The notes under the pieces are model-generated. The model ran no database searches. It was not told the DNA's origin and worked only from the letters and a program-made list of their open reading frames with translations. The translations under genes and the position numbers were made by a program. From Allokutzneria sp. NRRL B-24872 (GTDB lineage Bacteria; Actinomycetota; Actinomycetes; Mycobacteriales; Pseudonocardiaceae), in NCBI RefSeq assembly GCF_002155965.1, contig NZ_MUMH01000039.1, positions 1 to 64,000 on the forward strand: DNA of 64,000 bases, read 5' to 3'. Positions 7,640 through 62,180 of this stretch are shown here, piece by piece; the first letter of the stretch is position 1, and the number at the start of each line of letters is the position of its first letter.

Positions 7640-8007
7640 CCAACGTGCTCTCCTCCGTCCTCCTGCTCGGCGGAGCGTTGTTCTGCGTGCTCGGCGCGCT
7701 GGGCATGCTGCGCCTGCCGGACGTGCCGAGCCGCCTTCAGGCCGCGACCAAGCCGCAGACGCTCGGTTTACTGCTGATCCTCTCCGGCACGGCGTTGCAG
7801 CTGCCGCCGTCGTACGCGGTCGGACTGGCGCTGGTCGCGCTGTTCCAGGTGCTGACCGCGCCGGTGCTCTCGCAGTTCCTCGGGCGCGCCGCCTACCGCA
7901 CGGGCGCCGTCGAGGAGTCCACGCTGCTCTGCGACGACCTCAAGGCTGTTCGGGATGGTTCGCGGGATAGCGACGCAGAGTCGGGTTCAGCGTCACCAGG
8001 AGCGTGA
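7636..8007 (+). CDS. mrpG: Na+/H+ antiporter subunit G (MrpG/MnhG)
   Basis: A 123-aa protein, last gene of the Mrp operon. Three membrane helices carry the MrpG core GALFCVLGALGMLRLPD and SRLQAATKPQTLGLLLIL. GTG 7636 overlaps the mrpF stop. Codon 45 is a TTA leucine codon (7768-7770), rare in such genomes. The C-terminal hydrophilic tail (about residues 95-123) is encoded in DNA that also encodes, on the other strand, the end of the MFS exporter gene: the convergent genes overlap by 68 bp, so no separate terminator fits between them. Confidence 0.92.
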   Translation: MTNVLSSVLLLGGALFCVLGALGMLRLPDVPSRLQAATKPQTLGLLLILSGTALQLPPSYAVGLALVALFQVLTAPVLSQFLGRAAYRTGAVEESTLLCDDLKAVRDGSRDSDAESGSASPGA

Positions 8008-9159
8008 CCGCCGCGATCCCGCCCGTGCAGGTGAGCACGGCCGCGGTGGGCGGGAGTGACGCGGCGAGCTGACCACCGGCGAGCGAGCCGATGCCGAACG
8101 CGGCGCCGACCACGAGCGTCAGCACGCTGCCCAGCCTGCCGCGCAGCTCGTCCGGGGTGATCAGCATCTGGTGCGTGCTGATCGTGGTGTTCGCGGTCGG
8201 CGCGAGCAGGGCCATCAGTCCGAAGAGGACACCGATGAGGTAGCCGTTGTCGAACAGCAGGGTCAGCGGGGTCAGCAGCGTCACGCCCCAGAACACGCCG
8301 ACGATCGACAGGTAGGGGCTCAGCCGCTCGCACAGCGTGGGCGCGAGCAGCGAGCCCACGATGCCGCCGACGCCGAGCATCGCGGCCATGAACCCCAGCT
8401 CCGCCTCGGGGATGCCGCGCCCGTTCGCCAGCACCAGGACCACCAGGTAGAAGCCCGCGAAGAACATGTTCAGCACGGCCGCGCAGATGGTGGTCACGCG
8501 GATCTCCTTGCGCTGCCACACCCACCGCAGCCCCTCGGCGATCTCGCGGCCGAGGTGCGGGTTCTCCGGCTTGACGCGCTCGCGCGGCGGGACGCGCAGG
8601 AACAGCAGCGCGAAGAACCCGATGATGTGCGTGATCATGTCGAGCAGGAACGGGAAAGCCCTGTTCAGGCCGTAGAGCACGCCGCCGAGCGCCTTGCCGC
8701 CGGAGTCCCCGAGCGCGCTGCGCGCCGCGTTGAGCCCGATCGCCGTGGACAGCTGGCTCTCCGCGACGAGGTTCGGCAAGCACGCGTCCTCGGCGGGCTC
8801 GAACAGCGCGCGGCAGATGCCCATCACCGCCGCGACGACCACGAGGTGCGGCACGGTCACGGTGCCCCAGAACAGGACCGCGACCAGGCTGCCGAGCGAG
8901 ACCGCCTGCGCCGCCTCGCACCACACCATGACCTTCTTGCGATCCCACCGGTCGACCAGCGCCCCGGCGGGCAGCCCGACCAGCACCTGGCCGAGCGACT
9001 CCACCGCGACGACCGCGCCCGCCACCACCGGTGAGCCGGTGATCAGCAGCGCGAGCAGCGGGAACGCGAACGAGGTCGCGCTGAAGCCGACCTCGGCCAG
9101 CGCCTGGCTGGTCCACAGGATCGTGTAGTTCCTGTTGCGGGACAGGGGAACGGTCGTGG

Positions 9160-9163
<4 letters not shown>
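7940..9163 (-). CDS. MFS transporter (EntS-like exporter), probable NRPS product exporter
   Basis: A 407-aa major facilitator protein with about 12 membrane helices. The MFS motif A region is seen as [15 protein letters not shown] (about residues 69-83), and the sequence resembles MFS_3/EntS-type exporters of non-ribosomal products. ATG 9163 overlaps the stop of the upstream 6312-aa NRPS gene (ATGA), so it is translated as the last gene of the biosynthetic operon. Export of the finished peptide, and self-protection, is the likely role. The frame is open upstream into the NRPS, but those residues have shadow-frame composition. The 3' end overlaps convergent mrpG. Confidence 0.88.
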
Positions 9164-28097
<18,934 letters not shown>

Positions 28098-28098
<1 letters not shown>

Positions 28099-29711
28099 CA
28101 GTTTTCTTCCTCAGCAGCGAGAGCCTCGAGCTCCCGCAAGATCGTTTCTTCGACGAGCGCGGCCAGTGCGGCGACCGTGCGGCTGGTGAGCACATCACGC
28201 GGAGTGAGCGCGACGTCGAAGGCTTCCTTGACCTGGGAGGTGATGTGCAGGCTCAGGATCGAGTCCCCGCCCAGGTCGAAGAAGTTGTCCTCGATGCCGA
28301 CCTTCTCCACCCCGAGCACCTCGGCCCAGATCTCCGCCAGCGCCTCCTCCAGTTCGGTCTCCGGCGCCACGTAACCGACCGGAGCGGCGGGCGAAGAGCT
28401 GAAGCGCTCGACCTCGGCAACGGCCACCTCGCCGGTGAAGGCGGGAACGGAACCGTCGGTGGTGATGTCGACCAGCAGCGAGCGCAGGTCGGCGCCGAGG
28501 CGGCCGATGGTGTCGGCGTCGAACAGCTTCGGCTCGAAGCCCAGCACGAAGGACAGCTGCTCACCGGGGTAGACCGTCGCGCTGAGCGGGAAGTTCGTCG
28601 TCTCCACCGCCCGCAGCTCGCGCAGGCGCAGCCCGTGCGCGCTCGCCGCGTCGTCGTCGATCGGGTAGTTCTCGAACACCAGCAGGCTGTCGAACAGCGA
28701 CCGGCCACCGGTGACGCCGCTCCACGCCTGCATCTGCGTCAGCGACACGTGCTCGAAGCCCCGGGCCTCCACCTGCGCGGCCTGAAGCTCGCGCAACCAC
28801 TCGGAGATCTCGGTATCGCCCGGTACCGCGACCCGCACCGGCAGCGAGTTGATGAAGATGCCGGTGATCGCGTCCACGCCGGCGAGATCGGCCGGGCGGC
28901 CGGACACCGTCGAGCCGAAGCACACCTCGCTCCGTCCACTGTGGCGGGACAGCAGCAGCGCCCACGCGCCCTGCACGACCGCGCTCGGCGTGATGCGGTG
29001 CTCCTTCGCGAACGCGTACAGCCGCGCGGAGTCCTCAATGGACAGACCGAACGACTGCTGCTCCGAAGCCGCGGTGTCGTGCAGGTCGGTGCTCGCGCGG
29101 TCCTGGGGGAGCGGCGTGGGCTCGGTGAAGTCGCCGAGCACCTTGCGCCAGTGCGCCTCCGCGGCGTCCTTGTCCTGGCCCTGCAACCACTCCACGTAGT
29201 CGCGGAACGGCCGCCGCTCCAACGGCTCACCGCGCCCGGAGTGCGCCTCGAACACGTCGGAGAGCACCTGGAAGACGCTCCAGCCGTCCAGCAGCACGTG
29301 GTGGAACGTCCACAGCACCTGGACCTCGGTCCCCGACAGCCGCGCGAGCGCGACGCGCATCAGCGGCGCGGCGGCCAGGTCGAGACCTTCGGCGCGGTCG
29401 GACTCCAGCAGCGAGGCCAATCGAGACTGGCGCTCGGAGTCGGAAACACCGGTCCAGTCGAGGAAAGTGACGGGGAGCCGGACCGAGTCGTGCACGATCT
29501 GCACGGGCTCGCCGACGCCCTCCCACACCACGGAGCTGCGCAGCACGGGAGTCCGGTCGACGACCTGCTGCCACGCCTCGGCGAAGCGCTCGCTGTCGCG
29601 AACGCCGTCCAGCACGAAACTGGTCTGCTGGAAGTAGGCACCCTGATCACCCTGGGACAGGCCGTGGAACACCATCCCGGCCTGCATCGAGGTGAGCGGG
29701 TAGACGTCCTG
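28098..29711 (-). other. NRPS module 3 (C-T), no adenylation domain
   Basis: The DCL-type C domain runs to about residue 2055 and is joined by a 30-residue linker straight to the carrier domain (Ser2119). No A-domain remnant is visible. The residue must be supplied in trans. Without an E domain the residue stays L. Confidence 0.85.
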
Positions 29712-32700
29712 TGTGGACGGAGTGACCAGCCGGTCGACCTGCTCCTGCGTGAGCCGCGCGAGCGGGAAGTCCGAAGGCGTCCGCCCACCGGAACCGGCCG
29801 CGGCGCAGTGCGTGATGATCTCCTGGAGCGCGGCGAGCAGCGCTCCGGCCAGCGCGCGGACCGTGTCGCCCTCGTACTGCGCTTCCGAGTAGTACCAAGT
29901 GAAAGCGAGCGCGCCCTTCTCCACCCGGCCGACCACGTCGAGCAGGTACGTGCGCTGCGCCTCCGGGGCCATGTCGAGCGCGAGCTCACCCTGGCTGTCG
30001 TCGAAGCGGCCCAGGTAGTTGAAGCTCACCTGCGGTGCGGCCGTGAGCGCGGCGTCGCCGGAGATGTGGCGCAGCGCCCCGTAACCGATGCCGCGCCCGG
30101 GAATCGCGCGTAACTGCTCCTTGACCGACTTCAGCGCCTCGCCCCAGCCGGAGTCCGGCAGGTGCAGCGAGACCGGGAACATGGTGGTGAACCAGCCGAC
30201 CGTCCGCGACAGATCGACGTCGCCGAACAGCTCCTCGCGGCCGTGCCCCTCCAGCGCCAGCAGCACGCGCTCGGTGCCGGTCCAGTCGCTGAGCACGCGG
30301 CCCAGCGCGGCCAGCAGCACGTCGTTGACCTGGGTCCGGTACGCCTCGGGCACGTCGCGCAGCAGCGCATCGGTTTCCGTGGTGGAAAGGTAAACGCTGA
30401 CCTCGCGCATCGACGCGGCGTCGTTCACGCCCTCGTGGTCCACCGGCAGTTCACATTCAGCGTGCTCGCCCCAGTACCGGCGCTCGCCGGAGAAACCACC
30501 GTCAACGGTGTGCGCGGTGAGCCGCCGCGACCACTCCTGGAACGACGTGGACTTCTGTCCGATGTGGATGGTGGAGCCGCGAAGAGCCTGCCGGTAGGCG
30601 GTTTCCAGGTCCTCGGCGATGATCCGCCACGACACGCCGTCCACGACGAGGTGGTGCCCGGTCAGCAGCACGGTCCGCGCGTCCAGCACCTTCGCCCGCA
30701 GCAACTGCCCGGCGCCGAGGTCGAACGCCTCGTCCGGGGCCGCGTCACTGAACGGCTCCACGGCACCGACCGGCGCGTTGTCCTGCGCCCAGTCGCCGTC
30801 CACCACGCGGAAGCGCATGCGCAGCGCGTCGTGGTGCTCGATCACCGCGACCAGCGCGGCGCGCAACGCCACCACGTCGGCCTTCTCGTCCAACATGATC
30901 CGCATCGACTGGTTGAACCGGTCGGGGGAGACGCTGTGGCCGGTGAGGAACCACTTCTGGATGGGCGTCAGCGGCACGTCGCCGACGACCTCGCCCTGCT
31001 CGCTGTGCTGCTGCTGCACGCGCGCCTCGGTGACGTGCGGCGCGAGCGCGGCGATGCTCTGGTGCTGGAAGATGTCCTTCGAGGACAGCACGAGCCCGGC
31101 CTTGCGCGCCCTGGTCACCACCTGGATGCACAGGATGGAGTCGCCGCCGAGGGAGAAGAAGTTGTCCCGCACGCCCACCTTCGGCACACCGAGCACGTCG
31201 GCGTAGATCTCCGCGAGCGTGGCTTCGACCGGCGTCCTGGGCGCGACGTGCTTGGACTCCGCGCGAGCCTCAGCTGGAATCTCCGGCAGCTCGTCGCGGT
31301 CGAGGGAGTCCACGAACACGAACGCGGTCGGCACCATGTAGTCCGGCAGCACCTGCGCCAGGAAGGTCCGCAGCGCAACGGAATCCTGCTTGCGCGCCTT
31401 CACGAACGCCACGAGCCGACCGCGACCGGCCTCGGTGTCCACCACGGCGACCGCATCGTCCACATCGGAGTGTCGCAAAAGGACGGACTCCACCGAATCG
31501 ACGTCCACCCGGAAACCGCGCACGCGCACGATCTCGGCGGTGTCGGCGACGACCTCCTCGGAGCCGCGCATCGGCAGGTCGCCGAGCACGCTGTCCGGAG
31601 CGGACACGATGCCGCTGAGCAACACCTCAAGGTGCTCGCTCATCCGCGCGATGGTGTCCGCGTCGAACAGATCGGTGTTGTACTCGATGGTCGTGGTCAA
31701 GGAGTCGGCGGTCGGCCAGAACTCCACCACGACGTCGAAGCGCGACGACGGGCGCGGCAGGTCGTGCTCGCTGACGCGCAGCTGCCCCATGCGGTCGCGC
31801 CGCACCAACGGCTGCTGCAACGCCACCAGGGCCTGCACGAGCGGAGTCCGGCTCGGGTCGCGCTCCGGCTGGAGGTGTTCGACGAGGCGGTCGAACGGAA
31901 TCTCGTCGTGCGCGAAGGCTTCCAGAACCGTCTCGCGGACCTCGGCGAGGAAGTCCGGGAACTCCAGTAATGGGTCTACATAGGACCGCAGCACCAGAGT
32001 GTTCACGAAGAAGCCCGCGATGCCTTCGAGTTCCGTGCGCCCGCGACCCGAGTTCACCGTGCCCACGGAGATGTCGCGCTGCCGCGAGTACCGGGACAGC
32101 ATGATCTGCACAGCGGCCGTCAACGTCATGAACAACGTCGCGTCGTGCGCTCTGGCCACAGTGGACAGTCGCTCGACGAGATCGGTCGGCAGCACGCTGC
32201 GGTGCACGGCTCCGGCCGAGGTCCGCACCGGCGGGCGGAGGTGGTCGGTCGGCAGGTCGAGCACTTCGAGGCCGTCGAGCTTGTGCCGCCAGTACGCCAG
32301 GTGCCCGTGCGAGACGCCGCCGCCCAGCACGTCCTTGGAGCGCTCCCGCTGCCACACCGCGTAGTCGGCGTAGGAGATCGGCAGTTCGGTGAGCATCGCG
32401 GGCAGGCCCTGGACGGCCGCCGTGTACAGCTCGGCCAGCTCCTCCAACAGCAGCGACACCGACCAGCCGTCGGTGATGATGTGGTGCTGCGCCCACAGGA
32501 GCACGTGCTCCTCGGCGCTGACCTCCACCAGCAGCACGCGGGTCAGCGCGCTCGACAGCAGGTACGGGCGGCTCAGCTCGCGCTCCAGCTCGGCGTCCAC
32601 GTCCACGCCGGAGACCACTCGCACGGGGATCACGCCCTCGTCGGCGATGACCTGGAACGGCTCTCCGTCAACGGAGTCGAAGGTCGTGCGCAGCGCCTCG

Positions 32701-34616
32701 TGCCGCTGCGTCAGCTCGTCCAGCGCGGAGCGCAGCGCCACCATGTCCAGCGGCCCGCTCAGCCGCAGAGCCACACCGGTGTTGTGGTCAGTACCACCGG
32801 GAGCAAGATCCTCCACGAGCCAGAGCCGTTGCTGCGCCGAGGAAAGCGGCAACCGGCGACTGCGGTCGGCGCGCGGAATCCACTCCGCCGCGGTCGCGGT
32901 CTCGGGCAGCAGCGCGGCCAGCGTAGCCACGGTCGGCGCGTCGAACACGGCGCGCGCGGAGACCGCACTGCCGTACTTCTCCCGCAGGCGCGCCAACACC
33001 TTCACGGCCAGCACGGAGTCGCCGCCGAGCCCGAAGAAGTCGTCGTCGATGCCGATCTGGTCGGTCCCGAGCGCGTCGGAGAACAGGCCCGCCACGACCT
33101 CCTCGCGCTCCGTGCGCGGACGGCTGTCCACCGCACCGGCGCGCGCGGGCGCCGGGAGTGCCTTGCGGTCGAGCTTCCCGTGGGGGCTCAAGGGGAACGC
33201 GTCGAGCGTGACGAACGCGGCCGGCACCATGTAGTTCGGCATCTCCGCCGCGAGCGCTTCGCGGACGGCCGCCGGGTCGGCGGAGCCGGTGAGGTAGGCG
33301 ATGAGCCGCTTGTCGCCGGGGCGGTCCTCGCGCACGATCGCGACGGCCTGGCGCACGCCGGGAACCGCCTGCATCGCGGCCTCGATCTCGCCCAGCTCGA
33401 TGCGGAAGCCGCGCAGCTTGACCTGGTGGTCGGCGCGCCCCACGAACTCCAGCACCCCGGCCGGAGTGCGCCGGACGACATCGCCCGTGCGGTACATCCG
33501 GCTCCCGGCCGGGCCGAACGGGTCCGCGACGAAGCGCGTCGCCGACAGCCCGGGACGGCGCAGGTAGCCGCGCGCCAGACCGACACCGGACACGTACAGC
33601 TCGCCGACCTCGGTCGGGCGCAGCGCGGCGTCCAGCACGTACGCGGAGGTGTTCCAGATCGGGCCACCGATGGGCGGCGGCGCGTCGGCGGGCACCAGCG
33701 GACGGCTCCACGTCGAGACCACCGTGGCCTCGGTCGGACCGTAGGCGTTGATCATGCGGCGACCCGGGGCCCACCGCTGCACCAGTTCCGGCGGGCAGGC
33801 GTCACCGCCGACGACGAGCGTGCGGAACTCCGGCAGCCGCACGCCGTCCGGCACGGTGGCCAGCGCGACCGGCGGGATGAGCGCGTGGCTGATCCGGCAC
33901 CGCTCCAGCACCTCGGCCAGCTGCTCGCCCAGCAGCGGCCCCTCCGGCGGCACCACCAGCGCGGCACCGAGCGGCAGCGACATGCACAGCTCCAGCACCG
34001 AGGCGTCGAAGCTCGGCGAGGAGAACTGGAGCACCCGGTCGCCCGGCCGCACGTCGAAGCGCTCGGCCTCGGCCGCGGAGAAGTTCGCCAGACCCCGGTG
34101 CGACACCACGACGCCCTTGGGGCGCCCGGTGGAGCCGGAGGTGTAGATGACGTAGGCGGCGTTGTCCGGGGTCATGTCGACGACCGGGTCGCTCTCCGGC
34201 TGCCCCTCGCACTCCGGGAGCACGTGCAGCACGAGCAGCGGCCTCGCGTCGTCGATCATGTACGCGATCCGCTCGCGCGGGTAGGCGGGGTCAACCGGCA
34301 GGTACGCCGCGCCCGCCTTGAGCACCGCCAGCTGCGCCACGACGATGTCCACCGAGCGCGGCAGCACCAGCGCGACGATCTTCTCCGGCCCCGCGCCCGC
34401 CGCGATCAGCTTGTGCGCCAGGCGGTTCGCCCACGCGTTCAGCTCCGCGTAGCTCAGGCGGCGGTCGCCGTCGAGCACGGCGAGCGCGTTCGGCGAACGC
34501 GCCACCCGCGCCTCGAACAGCTCGGGGAAGGTCCGCGCGGGCACTGCTCGCGCGGCCTCGGTCCACTCCTGGGTCAGTGCGGCGAACAACGGCGTCGGAG
34601 CCGTCTCAGCGGTCAT
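28098..34616 (-). CDS. Non-ribosomal peptide synthetase, three modules A-T / C-(A remnant)-T-E / C-T
   Basis: A 2172-aa protein that starts the assembly line (modules 1-3). Domains in order: A1 25-485 ([12 protein letters not shown]10 HGKLDR), T1 498-570 (Ser534), LCL-type C2 588-1010 (HHIITDGWS 711-719), a 95-residue C-terminal A-domain remnant (1020-1115), T2 1125-1195 (Ser1160), E2 1213-1635 (HHLVVDGVS 1321-1329), DCL-type C3 1637-2055 (HHVLLDGWS 1772-1780), T3 2085-2155 (Ser2119). Modules 2 and 3 therefore have no working adenylation domain, although their C, T and E motifs are intact. There is no starter C domain, so the first residue has a free amine suitable for cyclization. ATG 34616 follows AAAGGG. 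The C-terminal tail is an acidic helix (EALAAEEEN). It lies 78 bp downstream of the PBP-type hydrolase gene. Confidence 0.96.
29712..32906 (-). other. NRPS module 2 (C - A remnant - T - E), A-deficient, D-residue
   Basis: The C domain is followed directly by a region equivalent only to the A8-A10 subdomain (31272-31559), then T and E. The A3, A4, A5 and A7 core regions are absent and the A10 lysine is lost. T2 must be charged by another A domain in trans. The E domain makes residue 2 a D-amino acid. Confidence 0.85.
31272..31559 (-). pseudogene. Relic of an adenylation domain inside module 2
   Basis: Residues 1020-1115 of the 2172-aa [21 protein letters not shown] matches the A8 hinge region (usual form [13 protein letters not shown]). 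[16 protein letters not shown] matches the stretch before A10. The NGK motif with the catalytic lysine is replaced by DRDELPEIP, so it cannot catalyse adenylation. The frame is intact across it, so this is an in-frame deletion of roughly 350-400 residues kept as a linker, not a frameshift. Confidence 0.85.
32907..34616 (-). other. NRPS module 1 (A-T), loading module
   Basis: Pocket residues read by aligning A4-A5 to GrsA (positions 235, 236, 239, 278, 299, 301, 322, 330, 331, 517) give DALLVGAVVK. This resembles the Phe/Tyr-type DAWT-AAV-K frame with larger-pocket changes (W239L, A301G), so a large hydrophobic or aromatic L-amino acid is expected. The same code occurs in modules 7 and 8. The substrate is inference. 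Confidence 0.7.
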
Positions 34617-34694: not shown

Positions 34695-35954
34695 TCAGCG
34701 GCGGCGCGCGAGCCGTCCGCCGACCTGGACGCGGTCGACGCCGCCGCCGGGGCCGGTGAGGAACCGCCCGGTCTGGCTGGTGTCGTCGGTGTCCACGTCG
34801 CGCAGGGCGAAGAGCAGGCCGTCGAGCGGGGTCAGCTCGGCGTAGTCCTCACCGTCCACGGCGAGGGCGAGCCGCCCGTCAGCGGCCTCGGTGACGGTGT
34901 ACGTGAGGTCACCGTTGAGGTAGTCGCCGCAACAGTCTTCGGGCGCGGGCACCTGGCCGCCGCGGTCGACGGCGGGCTGCCCACCGAGGCCGAACTCCGC
35001 GGCGAACTCCTGCCACAGGTGCAAACCGTTGCTGCCGTTGGTGGTGAGCGCGACCACCGTGCCCGACTCCGGGTGCACCCGCAGGTGCGCGGACGTGCCG
35101 TCGCCGGTGCCGTCGTGGCCGAACCAGTCGCCGTGCACCGCGACGCCGAGACCCCACCCGTCGGCCATGCCGAACGGCTCGGCGCCGTCCACCGGCGTCC
35201 GTGCCTGCACCAGCAGGTCCTCGCCGATCAGCTCTTCGGCGCCGAGGAACACACCGCCGACGGTGAGCAGGTCCAACGCGCTCGCCGCGATGGCGCCCGC
35301 GGGCGCGTCCAGTTCGCTCAGCGACTGGCGGACCGGGAGGGCGGGGTGCCCGGAGCGCACCGCGTGCCCGTGCACGACGTCCACGCGGGTGTCACCGACG
35401 ACGTAGGCCAGGTCGAGCCCGAGCGGCTTGCCCAGGACCGCGTCGACGGACTCCCGCCAACTCATCCCGGTCACGGCCTCGACGACTGCGCCGACGACAA
35501 CGTAACCGATGTTGGAGTAGGAGAAACCCTCGTTCGGCTCGCCCACCGGGGTGAGGGTGCGGCACGCGGTCAGCACGTGCCTGCGCGGCGAGGACGCGCT
35601 CGTGTCCGTCGCGTCGGACGGCAGCCCAGCGGTGTGGCTGAGCAGCTGGCGCGTGGTCACCGCGCCGAAGGCGGTGTCCCGCCCCAGTTCCGGCAGGTAC
35701 TCGGAGACGGGCTCGTCCAGCTCCAGGTCCTGCTCCTCGGCCAGCGCCAGCGCCACCGCGGCGGTGCACGCCTTGGTCACCGAGCCCACCGGGACCTTCG
35801 CGCCCTCGGTGAGCGGTTCGGCCCGGCCCTGCCTGGCCACGCCGAACACGGCCGACGTCCGTCGGCCTTCCAGCAGCACGGCGACCTGCGCGCCGGGCAC
35901 GCCCCGGCTCACGACCAGCTCGCCGAGCCGTCGCGACATCTGGGCGAAATCCAT
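34695..35954 (-). CDS. PBP-type (beta-lactamase family) serine hydrolase, probable trans-acting NRPS thioesterase/cyclase
   Basis: A 419-aa cytoplasmic protein of the serine beta-lactamase/penicillin-binding-protein superfamily, class C-like. The catalytic motifs are present: SVTK (Ser58-Lys61), YSN (146-148) and HDG (280-282, the KTG equivalent). No signal peptide or membrane anchor is seen, unlike cell-wall PBPs and secreted beta-lactamases. A C-terminal domain of about 100 residues, lipocalin-like in position, matches the two-domain layout of PBP-type thioesterases. It is the first gene of the NRPS operon, whose last module ends in E with no TE. The SurE enzyme of surugamide biosynthesis and relatives (desotamide, ulleungmycin, mannopeptimycin pathways) do this job with D-terminal peptidyl carriers. 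Start ATG 35954, preceded by GCGAGGAT, is preferred over an upstream ATG at 36068. Alternatives are an esterase or D-aminopeptidase. Confidence 0.82.
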   Translation of the reverse strand: MDFAQMSRRLGELVVSRGVPGAQVAVLLEGRRTSAVFGVARQGRAEPLTEGAKVPVGSVTKACTAAVALALAEEQDLELDEPVSEYLPELGRDTAFGAVTTRQLLSHTAGLPSDATDTSASSPRRHVLTACRTLTPVGEPNEGFSYSNIGYVVVGAVVEAVTGMSWRESVDAVLGKPLGLDLAYVVGDTRVDVVHGHAVRSGHPALPVRQSLSELDAPAGAIAASALDLLTVGGVFLGAEELIGEDLLVQARTPVDGAEPFGMADGWGLGVAVHGDWFGHDGTGDGTSAHLRVHPESGTVVALTTNGSNGLHLWQEFAAEFGLGGQPAVDRGGQVPAPEDCCGDYLNGDLTYTVTEAADGRLALAVDGEDYAELTPLDGLLFALRDVDTDDTSQTGRFLTGPGGGVDRVQVGGRLARRR

Positions 35955-36918: not shown

Positions 36919-38976
36919 GTGGACTCGGCTCAGGAGTTGTTCGCAACCGCCGTCGACCGGGAAGCCGCCGGAGACCTGCGCGGGGCGAAAGCGTTGTACG
37001 GCAAGGTGATCGAGACCGACGACGAGGAGTGCGCCCCGGCAGCGGCGATGCGGCTGGCGCGGATGCTGGAGGGCGTGGGCGATCTGGCGGGCGCTCGATC
37101 GGCCTACCGCGCCGCGGCGGATTCCGGGCACCCGCTGCACTCCGGGGTGGCGGCGCGCAGGCTCGCGGGCGCGGGCGCGCCGCGTCGCGCGGCGGCGGCA
37201 CCGAAGCTGCTGGAGCCGGTGGCGAACCCGGAGCTGTACCGGCGCAACGCTTTCCGGCTCAGCGGTCTCCCGGTGGACGCCACAGCGCGCGACCTGCGAC
37301 GACGCGCGGAGCAGCTGCGCGCGGCCGAACGACTCGGCGCCCCGGTGACCGTGACGTCGTCCCCGCTGCCACCGGTCGAGGCACCAGATCCCGCGGCGGT
37401 GCGGGAAGCGCTCACGCTGGTGCGCGATCCGACCAGGCGGATCGTCGAGGAACTGTTCTGGTTCTGGGAAAACCAGTCTCCGGACGCCCCCGACAGCGGT
37501 CCAGCCCTGCACGACGCCGCCGTGCTGGCACATGCCCAAGCACTGGACGCCGGGCACGACGCGGACCCCGCGCTCTGGCGGCGCGCCTACGAGCACTGGG
37601 CCGCGGTCGCCGAGGAAACTGAGTGCTGGCAGTGGTTGGCGGAGCGCGTCGTCCAGTTGGCCGATCGCAGGCTCACCGAAGAGACCGTCGAGACCATGCG
37701 CGCCGAACTGCCCAGAGCAGTGCTCGCGCCGCAAGCCGACCTGGCCGTCCGCGCGGCCGAGGCCGGGGCGGAGGACATCGCCCGCGCGCACGTCGAAGCC
37801 CTGCGCCGGTCCGGGTTTCCGGTCGCGGTGATCACCGACGCCCTCGCCGCCGCGACGAGACACCTCAGCGCGCGGGTCAGAACCGCCTGCCAGAACGCGG
37901 AGCGCGCCACGGCCGCCGACCCCGAGGACGGCGCCGACGCCGTCGACGCGCTGCTGGACCAGGTCGAGCCGCTGCTGCGGGCACTGCGCCTGGTGCTCGG
38001 CGCGACCACCTCGGCCTACGGAGCCGCCGCGGACGCGCTCGCGCTGTCGGTCAACACGTGCGTGATCAGGTTCGTCAACGAGGGCCACGACTTCGAAGAC
38101 GCCTTCGAACAGCTCGAAGAGGTCCTGGACATCGCGGTCAGCGAGCAGGCGCGCGCGGCGATCGAACCGAGCTTCGTCGCGGCGGGCTCCAACGTGCTCG
38201 GCGAGCTGTGCCAGGACGCGGCCGACCGCGCCACCGCGTTACCGGAGCAGGGCGCGCAGATCGCGGGGGAGCTGATCGCCGAGATGCGGCCGACGCTGCT
38301 GGCGATGGCCGCGCGCGCCGATCCGGAGAACCCGCTCTACCGCGAGTGCCTTGACGGCGTCGCGCTGTGCGTCGTCAGCTGCCTCGGCTCCTTCCACGGC
38401 GCGACCGGCGACGACGAGACCACGCTCGACGGACTCGACGGAGCGCTGGACATCGCCGTCGGCGACGAGGCGCGGGTGTCGATCACCCAGGCCATCGAGG
38501 TCGTGCGCGGCGGCCTCAACCCGCCGTGCTGGTTCTGCCAGGCCCACAACGGAAAGGACGCCGCATATGAGGTCGCGGTGCACGGTGAGGTCGACCAGTC
38601 CGAGTTCCCCAAGGTGACGTGGAAGACGGCCGCCGTCGCCGTGCCGCGCTGCGTCTCGTGCCGAGAGGCGCACCAGCACCGCGACTGGCTGGAGGCGGGT
38701 TGGGTCTCCTCGCTGATCACGCTGTTCGGCGCGCCCCTGGTCGCCGTCGGGATGGTGGTGCTGTTCAACGAGGGCTTCGAGGTCCCCGCCGTGCTGTTCT
38801 ACCTGCTCGTCGCGATCTTCCTGCTGTTCGCGGTGTACGGCTCGCTGGTGAACGCCCGCCAGCGCCGGGCCACCGCGCGGCAGGCGCACCTCACCGCGGC
38901 CCTGTCCCGCTTCCCGCCGATCCAGCAGCTCGAAGGGCTCGGCTGGCGGCTCGGCGCGCGGCCACCCGGCCTCTAG
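36919..38976 (+). CDS. TPR/J-like protein with CxxC pairs and C-terminal membrane hairpin
   Basis: A 685-aa protein of no recognised family name. Residues 1-95 form TPR-like helices (LFATAVDREAAGDLRGAKALYGKVIE, then GDLAGARSAYRAAADSG). Residues about 107-140 (YRRNAFRLSGLPVDATARDLRRRAEQL) resemble helices I-II of J domains but lack the HPD tripeptide. A long alpha-helical middle follows. Near the C-terminus two pairs, CWFC and CVSC, could bind zinc. Two hydrophobic helices (about residues 597-640) form a membrane hairpin. GTG 36919 follows GGGAGAAGG. It is first of three genes with a GrpE-like protein and an Hsp70, so it probably acts as their membrane-bound co-chaperone or client adaptor. Codon 441 is TTA. 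Function is inference. Confidence 0.75.
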   Translation: MDSAQELFATAVDREAAGDLRGAKALYGKVIETDDEECAPAAAMRLARMLEGVGDLAGARSAYRAAADSGHPLHSGVAARRLAGAGAPRRAAAAPKLLEPVANPELYRRNAFRLSGLPVDATARDLRRRAEQLRAAERLGAPVTVTSSPLPPVEAPDPAAVREALTLVRDPTRRIVEELFWFWENQSPDAPDSGPALHDAAVLAHAQALDAGHDADPALWRRAYEHWAAVAEETECWQWLAERVVQLADRRLTEETVETMRAELPRAVLAPQADLAVRAAEAGAEDIARAHVEALRRSGFPVAVITDALAAATRHLSARVRTACQNAERATAADPEDGADAVDALLDQVEPLLRALRLVLGATTSAYGAAADALALSVNTCVIRFVNEGHDFEDAFEQLEEVLDIAVSEQARAAIEPSFVAAGSNVLGELCQDAADRATALPEQGAQIAGELIAEMRPTLLAMAARADPENPLYRECLDGVALCVVSCLGSFHGATGDDETTLDGLDGALDIAVGDEARVSITQAIEVVRGGLNPPCWFCQAHNGKDAAYEVAVHGEVDQSEFPKVTWKTAAVAVPRCVSCREAHQHRDWLEAGWVSSLITLFGAPLVAVGMVVLFNEGFEVPAVLFYLLVAIFLLFAVYGSLVNARQRRATARQAHLTAALSRFPPIQQLEGLGWRLGARPPGL

Positions 38977-38997
38977 CCCTTTCCCCCGAGGAGGAGC

Positions 38998-39329
38998 ATG
39001 TCAGCCCACGTCCAGGTGGAGTCCCGCTCGCTGGCCGACATCGCCACGGCGGTGTGGCGGCTGCACGCCAAGCTCGCCGACCAGGACTCGCCCGCGCGCA
39101 GGCACGCGCAGACCGCGATGGACGCGCTCGCCGAAGCCGGGATCGAGGTCCAGTCCCACCGCGACCGCGACTACGACCCCGGCATGGCGATCCGCGTGCT
39201 CGCCTTCCAACCCCGGCCGGGGCTGACCAAGGAGACCATCGTGGAAACCGTCCGGCCCACGATCTACCTGCACGGCCAGGTGATCGGCATGGGTGAGGTC
39301 ATCGTCGGCATCCCGTCTGGAGAAGCTCA

Positions 39330-39333
<4 letters not shown>
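38998..39333 (+). CDS. Small GrpE-like protein (putative nucleotide exchange factor)
   Basis: A 111-aa protein starting at ATG 38998 behind GAGGAGGAG. Residues 8-55 are helical. Residues 58-105 resemble the C-terminal beta-domain of GrpE (YDPGMAIRVLAF, then ETVRPTIYLHGQVIGMGEVIVGIP, compared with GrpE VVEVLRPGYRLGDRVLRPARV). It is much shorter than housekeeping GrpE (about 180-220 aa) and lacks the long N-terminal coiled coil. It sits 21 bp after the TPR/J-like gene and overlaps the Hsp70 start (GTGA), which supports a role in ADP/ATP exchange on that Hsp70. The homology is weak by eye. Confidence 0.6.
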
Positions 39334-41753
<2,420 letters not shown>

Positions 41754-46670: not shown

Positions 46671-46681
46671 AGGCGAGCGTG

Positions 46682-47908
46682 ATGTCCAGCAGATTCCGCG
46701 CGTCCGCGGCCGTTGTCGCGGTACTCGCACTCATCCTCGGCGGCACCGCACAGGCCGAGAGCCCAGCTCCCGATCCCAGCACCATGGCGACGACCTTCGC
46801 CGACGAGTTCAACCTGCCCGCGGGAACGCCGGTCGACGGCTCGAAGTGGCAGTTGGAGACCGGCGACAACGTCAACAACCACGAGCGGCAGTTCTACACC
46901 AACAGCACCAGCAACGCCGTCCACGACGGCGCGGGCAACCTGGTGATCACCGCGCGCCGGGAGAACCCCGGCAACTACCAGTGCTGGTACGGGCGGTGCG
47001 AGTACACCTCGGCGCGGCTGAACACCGCGGGCCGCTTCACCCAGGCGTACGGCCGTTTCGAGGCTCGGATGAAGCTCCCGCGCGGCAAGGGGATGTGGCC
47101 CGCGTTCTGGATGCTCGGCGACAACATGGGCCAGGTCGGCTGGCCGCAGGCGGGCGAGATCGACATCATGGAGAACGTCGGCCACCTGATGAACACCGTG
47201 CACGGAACCCTGCACGGGCCCGGCTACTCCGGCTCCGGCGGTATCGGCGCGGCCTACAACGGGCCGAACTTCGGCGACGGCTTCCACACCTTCGCGGTGG
47301 ACTGGGCGCCGAACCGGATCACCTGGTACGTCGACGGAAACGCTTACCAGACAAGGACTCCGGCCGACCTCGGCGGACGGCAGTGGGTCTTCGACCACCC
47401 GTTCTTCCTGATACTCAACCTGGCCGTCGGCGGCTACTGGCCGGGCGACCCCGACGGCAGCACGGTGTTCCCGCAGCAGCTCGTCGTCGACTACGTCCGC
47501 GTCACCACCAACAGCACGGGGGCGCCGACCGGGCAGATCACCGGGCTCGCGGGCAAGTGCGTCGACGTCGCGAACGCCAGCACCGCAAACGGGACACCGA
47601 TCCAGTTGCACGACTGCAACGGCAACGCCGCGCAGAACTGGACGGTCGCCGGTGACGGCACGATCCGCGCGCTCGGCAAGTGCCTCGACGTGAACAACAA
47701 CGGCGCCAACGACGGGGCGGCCGTGGTGCTGTGGGACTGCCACGGCGGTGCCAACCAGAAGTGGGCGACACCGGCCGCCAGGGACATCGTGAGCATCTCC
47801 GGCAACAGATGTCTCGACGTCACCGGCAACAACTCCGCCAACGGGACGCGGCTGCAGGTGTGGACGTGCGCGGGCACCGCGAACCAGAAGTGGAACGTTC
47901 CGCGCTAG
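46682..47908 (+). CDS. Secreted GH16 endo-beta-1,3-glucanase with ricin-type lectin domain
   Basis: A 408-aa secreted enzyme. Residues 1-26 form a signal peptide (SRFRASAAVVAVLALILGGTAQA). A GH16 laminarinase-type domain spans about 35-275, with the catalytic signature GEIDIMEN (Glu159 nucleophile, Asp161, Glu164 acid/base) and FHTFAVDWAPNRITWYVDG. A C-terminal ricin-B-like beta-trefoil (about 280-408) has three QxW repeats (AQNWTV, NQKWAT, NQKWNV) and binds carbohydrate. It should attack beta-1,3-glucans of fungal or plant walls. ATG 46682 follows GAGAGGCGAG; GTG 46679 is an alternative. It is a single-gene unit ended by a strong terminator. Confidence 0.92.
   Translation: MSSRFRASAAVVAVLALILGGTAQAESPAPDPSTMATTFADEFNLPAGTPVDGSKWQLETGDNVNNHERQFYTNSTSNAVHDGAGNLVITARRENPGNYQCWYGRCEYTSARLNTAGRFTQAYGRFEARMKLPRGKGMWPAFWMLGDNMGQVGWPQAGEIDIMENVGHLMNTVHGTLHGPGYSGSGGIGAAYNGPNFGDGFHTFAVDWAPNRITWYVDGNAYQTRTPADLGGRQWVFDHPFFLILNLAVGGYWPGDPDGSTVFPQQLVVDYVRVTTNSTGAPTGQITGLAGKCVDVANASTANGTPIQLHDCNGNAAQNWTVAGDGTIRALGKCLDVNNNGANDGAAVVLWDCHGGANQKWATPAARDIVSISGNRCLDVTGNNSANGTRLQVWTCAGTANQKWNVPR

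Positions 47909-58855: not shown

Positions 58856-62180
<3,325 letters not shown>

Follow-up and report, generated by a model that had tools for sequence, protein, structure and literature searches.

A stand-alone SurE-family thioesterase adjoins an NRPS line ending in an epimerization domain in Allokutzneria

Introduction

A non-ribosomal peptide synthetase (NRPS) line that ends in an epimerization (E) domain and carries no thioesterase (TE) raises the question of how its finished peptide is released, and in what form. We met this question in a 64,000-nucleotide stretch of DNA from Allokutzneria sp. NRRL B-24872 (RefSeq assembly GCF_002155965.1, contig NZ_MUMH01000039.1, positions 1 to 64,000), which is called the window below. 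A first-pass annotation had given the task of releasing and cyclising an octapeptide to a cytoplasmic serine hydrolase encoded by the first gene of the NRPS operon. PBP-type TEs are described as joining an N-terminal L-residue to a C-terminal D-residue (PMC11735501).

Results

Gene block and neighbourhood

The hydrolase gene belongs to a block of four genes, all on the minus strand, in the order TE, 78 bp, NRPS1, NRPS2, MFS exporter:

34695-35954 (stop codon included), minus strand: stand-alone PBP-type thioesterase and predicted peptide cyclase, 419 aa (ORF, homology and model)
28098-34616, minus strand: NRPS1, 2172 aa, A1-T1-C2-(A fragment)-T2-E2-C3-T3 (profiles and Pfam)
9160-28098, minus strand: NRPS2, 6312 aa, C4-A4-T4-E4-C5-A5-T5-C6-A6-T6-E6-C7-A7-T7-C8-A8-T8-E8, no TE (profiles and Pfam)
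7940-9163, minus strand: MFS exporter, 407 aa, overlapping the NRPS2 stop by 4 bases

The reading frame was placed as first proposed, with an ATG at 35954 preceded by GAGGA and a stop codon ending at 34695, and the same start is used in two congeneric orthologues (79.5% and 80.7% identity). A by-eye reading found no evident signal peptide, which fits a cytoplasmic enzyme. The gene does lead the block, 78 bp ahead of the NRPS1 start at 34616; the term operon holds as far as gene order, strand and spacing carry it. No gene for a tailoring enzyme lies in the four-gene block, so a product made of ordinary amino acids is favoured.

The order TE-NRPS1-NRPS2-MFS recurs in the congener G001, in Saccharothrix algeriensis, in Actinokineospora diospyrosa and in a ten-module cluster (G056). 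The congener G002 has TE-NRPS1-NRPS2, the MFS gene being absent from the ORFs that passed the filter of that scan. In a scan of genome contigs the homologue adjoined an NRPS in 24/24 loci, these NRPSs mostly being read in part; in 20 of the 24 it lies directly upstream of an NRPS beginning with an A domain, and in the other four directly downstream of an NRPS ending in E.

Three further regions of the window, all on the plus strand, were recorded. Divergent from the TE gene, 36919-41753 encodes three proteins: one of 685 aa, a small one and an Hsp70-like one of 807 aa; counterparts of the 685-aa and Hsp70-like genes flank the G002 cluster. The glycosyl hydrolase encoded at 46679-47908 belongs to family 16, looks secreted and carries Ricin_B_lectin at its C-terminus. 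The protein encoded at 59200-61440 has two Terpene_syn_C_2 stretches, a layout that we take to resemble a geosmin-type synthase.

Family membership of the enzyme

At an E-value of 1e-5, Pfam matched the enzyme to Beta-lactamase (PF00144) alone. This match would suit a class C beta-lactamase, a DD-peptidase or an esterase with no relation to the NRPS, adjoining it by chance. However, the NCBIfam class C beta-lactamase model gave 74.2 bits, far below its curated cut-off of 415. In a phmmer search of all PDB sequences the top two structures were SurE (3.9e-62) and Ulm16 (1.8e-52), followed by the IS11 esterase (3.1e-24), and the resemblance to SurE and Ulm16, read from sequence, is far beyond chance.

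We then built a tree of 54 rows, because grouping with esterases or DD-peptidases had been named as an outcome that would refute the first proposal. It comprised SurE, Ulm16, 33 homologues (P0001 and 32 loci out of 44, of which one scan gave 20 and the genome-contig scan 24; L011 and L039 look like one gene) and 19 non-TE rows. The latter were the IS11 esterase, an alkaline D-peptidase and 17 PF00144 rows, of which the window's genome supplied eight and weaker matches in relatives nine; the tree had no sequences of AmpC, R61, MppK, PenA, WolJ or FlkO. The homologues, SurE and Ulm16 formed one group with support of 100/99, recovered in 100% of 200 bootstrap trees, and all 19 non-TE rows fell outside it. 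The enzyme thus sits with SurE and Ulm16, apart from the IS11 esterase and the D-peptidase, and the refuting outcome was not seen. A tree with fewer outgroups (three paralogues) had the same outcome. The enzyme belongs to the SurE family of stand-alone PBP-type thioesterases.

Additional full-length homologues (42-45% identity) are found in the two congeners, at G001:C3:76465-77574, G001:C43:87819-89066 and G002:C1:2533315-2534565. At the threshold that gave these homologues, the window's genome has a single other match, which covers residues 5-318.

Active site, pocket and fold

The motifs named at the outset are all present, and the following features were located in the enzyme:

35772-35783, minus strand: SVTK motif with S58, the predicted nucleophile, and K61 (S and K in 33/33 aligned homologues)
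35511-35519, minus strand: YSN motif, Y146-S-N148 (Y in 33/33, N in 29/33)
35295-35297, minus strand: G220, aligned with SurE G235 (G in 33/33)
35109-35117, minus strand: HDG motif, H280-D-G282 (33/33)
34698-34928, minus strand: lipocalin-like C-terminal domain, its eight antiparallel strands lying between residues 343 and 418 (AlphaFold2 model)

Across the 33 homologues S58, K61, Y146, G220, H280, D281, G282 and R414 are invariant, and residue 148 is N in 29, S in three and T in one. The pairing of G220 with SurE G235 comes from the phmmer alignment, in which the SurE chain is numbered 20 above the numbering of the published work; we set this offset by taking the SurE catalytic serine to be S63. 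In SurE the pocket that receives the C-terminal D-residue contains G235, and mutating this glycine alters the accepted residue (PMC11735501).

An AlphaFold2 model based on the 33 homologues had a mean pLDDT of 92.2 and showed the eight antiparallel strands at the C-terminus. Foldseek ranked four SurE chains first, then Ulm16. After realignment the Z scores were 48.2 and 47.9 for SurE, 47.8 for Ulm16 and 38.5 for IS11; the remaining 46 rows among the matches listed had Z of at most 35.6, and nearly all of these alignments end at residue 322 or 323. SurE, Ulm16 and IS11 align through residue 419, including the C-terminal domain, whereas the class C beta-lactamases and the R61 DD-peptidase, among the matches listed, align at residues 1-323 only. 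The extent of the structural alignment, together with the NCBIfam score and the tree, leads us to reject a beta-lactamase, DD-peptidase or esterase identity; the adjoining NRPS at 24/24 loci also speaks against a chance neighbour, a reading to which we give almost no weight.

The two-domain fold is not in itself proof of cyclase function, because the IS11 esterase aligns over the whole model. That esterase could even be called in support of an enzyme that hydrolyses and releases a linear peptide, and a PBP-type TE faced with a poor substrate can hydrolyse it, as described for PenA on a tetrapeptide (PMC11735501). In the tree, however, the enzyme groups with two cyclases and apart from IS11, and it retains the pocket glycine, so that we regard release of a linear peptide as improbable.

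Domain order and stereochemistry

The domain order of the line was read with profiles built from the window's own domains. Apart from the complete modules of NRPS2, the following domains are of particular note:

33150-34526, minus strand: A1 adenylation domain, code DALLVGAVV (code reading and profiles)
31281-31583, minus strand: A2 remnant, C-terminal subdomain only, matching 362-442 of the 457 model positions and lacking the A10 lysine
31032-31229, minus strand: T2, carrier of the A-less module 2, FFSLGGDS intact
29775-30980, minus strand: E2 epimerization domain, HHLVVDGVS intact
28407-29711, minus strand: C3 condensation domain, DCL-like
28152-28352, minus strand: T3, carrier of module 3, which is without any A domain
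9163-10380, minus strand: E8, the terminal epimerization domain

At an E-value of 1e-5, Pfam found only Condensation, AMP-binding, AMP-binding_C and PP-binding matches in NRPS1 and NRPS2, and no thioesterase. With the domain profiles, this confirmed that the line ends in E, the E8 of NRPS2, with no TE of its own.

Every C and E domain in the window keeps HHxxxDG. C2, C4, C6 and C8 are of one type (C2 is LCL-type), and C3, C5 and C7, each placed after an E domain, are of another. Module 1 has no E domain, giving an L-configured start at the domain level, and E domains at modules 2, 4, 6 and 8 imply strict L-D alternation with a D-configured C-terminus. The E and C order is identical in five fully read clusters, three from Allokutzneria and one each from Saccharothrix and Actinokineospora. 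All 20 E domains of these clusters keep HHxxxD, EGHGRE, GWFT and FNY. The full HHxxxDG is found in 18/20, the other two being HHxxxDA in E6 of S. algeriensis (L075-L076) and A. diospyrosa (L077-L078), which makes a D-residue at position 6 less sure in those two species. By motif scan the ten-module G056 line (L067-L069) has a terminal E and all its A domains, and no strict alternation. Based on the domain types, the window's line probably makes a strictly alternating L-D cyclic octapeptide. The octapeptide first proposed should still be taken with caution, the line having eight T domains and only six complete A domains.

Modules 2 and 3 are A-less and conserved

Eight carriers in the window's line thus face six complete A domains. 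In the three Allokutzneria genomes module 2 retains only the last part of its A domain, with the A10 lysine missing. The A core of module 2 is absent from 22 genomes in all, comprising 20/20 TE-first loci (G001 included), the window and G002; G056, also TE-first, retains A2. The A2 fragment is present in 13/13 Saccharothrix loci and 0/6 Actinokineospora loci. A3 is found in 6/6 Actinokineospora and 12/13 Saccharothrix loci (L040 ends inside A3), and is missing in 3/3 Allokutzneria. An assembly artefact behind the A-less modules was ruled out, since G002 has the same order on a single contig.

Across the three Allokutzneria species T2, E2, C3 and T3 are 78-94% identical, T2 and T3 88-94%. Their dN/dS values were 0.19-0.29 for T2, 0.11-0.27 for T3, 0.15-0.26 for C3 and 0.27-0.32 for E2, with 0.08-0.27 for T1 and T4 as comparison; the TE gene, at 0.32-0.42, lies above most of the NRPS domains measured. 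Purifying selection and conservation indicate that modules 2 and 3 are kept and are not decaying.

Six complete A domains would suit a line in which the same cyclase acts after modules 2 and 3 have been skipped, giving a cyclic hexapeptide. Skipping would disrupt the LCL/DCL order, however, and it sits poorly with T2, E2, C3 and T3 domains whose motifs, identity and low dN/dS (0.11-0.32) have been maintained, or with the retention of C2, T2 and E2 in all 22 genomes with an A-less module 2. We consider a hexapeptide distinctly unlikely.

Loading of modules 2 and 3

If modules 2 and 3 are used, their carriers have to be charged from elsewhere, and there are published precedents for two routes. 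Within [C-A-T-E-C-A-T-C-T-E] of mannopeptimycin, the second A domain feeds both of the T domains after it, and free A-T proteins are used by syringomycin, ramoplanin and enduracidin (both PMC8949500). The mannopeptimycin line also has a SurE-type cyclase, MppK (PMC7459860). In the window's line, too, one chain carries both a complete A domain and an intact C-T-E module without one.

With the same cyclase, modules 2 and 3 might instead be charged in trans by a free A or A-T protein whose gene lies elsewhere in the genome; residues 2 and 3 could then differ from residue 1. The free A-T modules just cited offer a model for this, and 42 of the 48 AMP-binding matches in the window's genome lie outside the two NRPSs. 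On the contig, however, all six AMP-binding matches fall in NRPS1 and NRPS2, leaving no free A gene in the window. The trans-loader scan covered 16 of the 42 outside stretches; its motif filter gave an ORF in nine and none in seven, and two of the nine ORFs look like free amino-acid A proteins. At E 1e-80 the first was unmatched in G001, G100, G101 and G102. The second was unmatched in G100 at E 1e-100, and in G101 and G103 its matches reached just 38-40%. As general trans loaders both were rejected, since neither was matched throughout the genomes it was compared with, all of which have an A-less module 2. Loading in trans is hence unlikely in our view, if less so than the skipping of both modules. 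T-domain similarity does not reveal which A domain charges T2 or T3.

With neither candidate in all of the A-less genomes, sharing of A1 is the simplest reading, in which A1 would serve T2 and perhaps T3.

A second NRPS region was seen on G000:C425, and a 777-aa free A protein encoded there is 85-87% conserved in both congeners.

Predicted residues and ring

Nine-residue codes were taken from a hand-anchored alignment, in which residue 239 of A4-A6 has no firm reading (W or L; E by eye). A1, A7 and A8 share the code DALLVGAVV, and A1 reads DALL[VI]GAVV in 22/22 genomes. D occupies positions 278 and 331 in A4-A6, which we read as probably basic. For comparison, Table 3 of the cyclofaulknamycin paper (PMC8399532) lists DGMLVGAVVK of FlkP A2 as predicted Leu and DLAESGAVDK (A4) as predicted Arg, Orn or Lys, both assignments being predictions themselves. 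The code of A8, the source of the D-configured C-terminus, is close to that of FlkP A2 (PMC8399532), and the native C-terminus of SurE substrates is D-Leu (PMC11735501). For the ring we predict the order Leu-like, D-?, ?, D-basic, basic, D-basic, Leu-like, D-Leu-like. Its size and sequence are uncertain, because the line has eight carriers and six complete A domains and the outcome depends on how modules 2 and 3 are loaded.

In S. algeriensis the codes at positions 3 and 7 are Thr-like. A. diospyrosa has a Ser-type code at position 3, DVWHLSLVD being what we take to be a Ser code. We found no paper on the meaning of the window's A-domain codes, and among the titles listed for Saccharothrix NRPS and Allokutzneria none concerned the product of this cluster.

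Discussion

Collectively the tree, the model fold, the motifs, the NRPS linkage at 24/24 loci, the terminal E and the L-configured start support the original proposal that a SurE-type TE serves this line. The explanation we favour, and which we hold to be very likely, is that this enzyme releases and cyclises head to tail a probable alternating L-D octapeptide, with A1 charging T2 and perhaps T3. E8 would set the D-residue on the T8-bound peptide, S58 would take the finished peptide from T8 to give an acyl-enzyme, and the free amino group of the module-1 L-residue would then attack to close a head-to-tail lactam. The transfer to S58 and the N-terminal attack are proposed because they are the known chemistry of the family. 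The cyclase is predicted to prefer a large neutral D-residue. Points against this explanation are the dN/dS of the TE gene, above that of most NRPS domains measured, and the six complete A domains for eight carriers.

The closest known systems have much in common with the window. SurE (surugamide; PDB 6KSU, 6KSV) is 35-36% identical to the enzyme, shares its two domains, SxxK, YSN and HDG motifs and pocket glycine, and likewise serves a TE-less line. Its products include cyclic octapeptides, although SurE serves two lines, making an octa- and a decapeptide (PMC11735501), whereas here there is one adjoining line with two A-less modules. Ulm16 (ulleungmycin; PDB 8FEK) is 37-41% identical, with the same catalytic motifs, and acts on a hexapeptide substrate (PMC11735501), unlike the octapeptide predicted here. 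IS11, a thermophilic esterase (PDB 7SPN), has a PBP-like and a C-terminal domain as the window enzyme does, but is only 24% identical and sits with the non-TE rows of the tree. Mannopeptimycin, likened here by description and not by MppK sequence, also combines a SurE-type cyclase with a C-T-E module that has no A domain of its own (PMC7459860, PMC8949500); the window differs in having two A-less modules, the first directly after the initiation module, and no tailoring enzyme in the block.

The two fully read Saccharothrix and Actinokineospora clusters are homologous to that of the window, with the same TE-NRPS1-NRPS2-MFS order, eight modules, E domains at 2, 4, 6 and 8 and an A-less module 2. 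In contrast to the window, clusters of these genera keep A3 (with Thr-, Ser- or Leu-like codes, or DVFSIAMVH), and in those of Actinokineospora even the A2 fragment is gone.

Should the octapeptide prove real, its ring would have an even number of residues alternating between L and D. The lugdunin paper cites this class from designed peptides, describing even-numbered D,L cyclopeptides as designs that self-assemble into nanotubular channels (PMC11389392). We can suggest only tentatively, as an idea more likely wrong than right, that the line makes a natural cyclo-(L-D)4 ring in which three consecutive basic residues lie opposite Leu-like residues, so that nature would have its own version of the designed self-assembling D,L-cyclopeptide nanotubes. 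The backbone stereochemistry would be constant in three genera, residues 3 and 7 would vary, and A1 would feed up to three carriers.

For this family of lines the data outline a stepwise loss of A domains, in which the A2 core is gone from all 22 genomes that have an NRPS1 of this type, the A2 fragment also from Actinokineospora, and A3 from Allokutzneria only, while G056 keeps A2. With such a series, provided by nature, one can ask how a single A domain ends up serving several carriers. The enzyme itself is a well-supported cyclase beside an orphan line, the product of which is predictable well enough for synthesis and testing.
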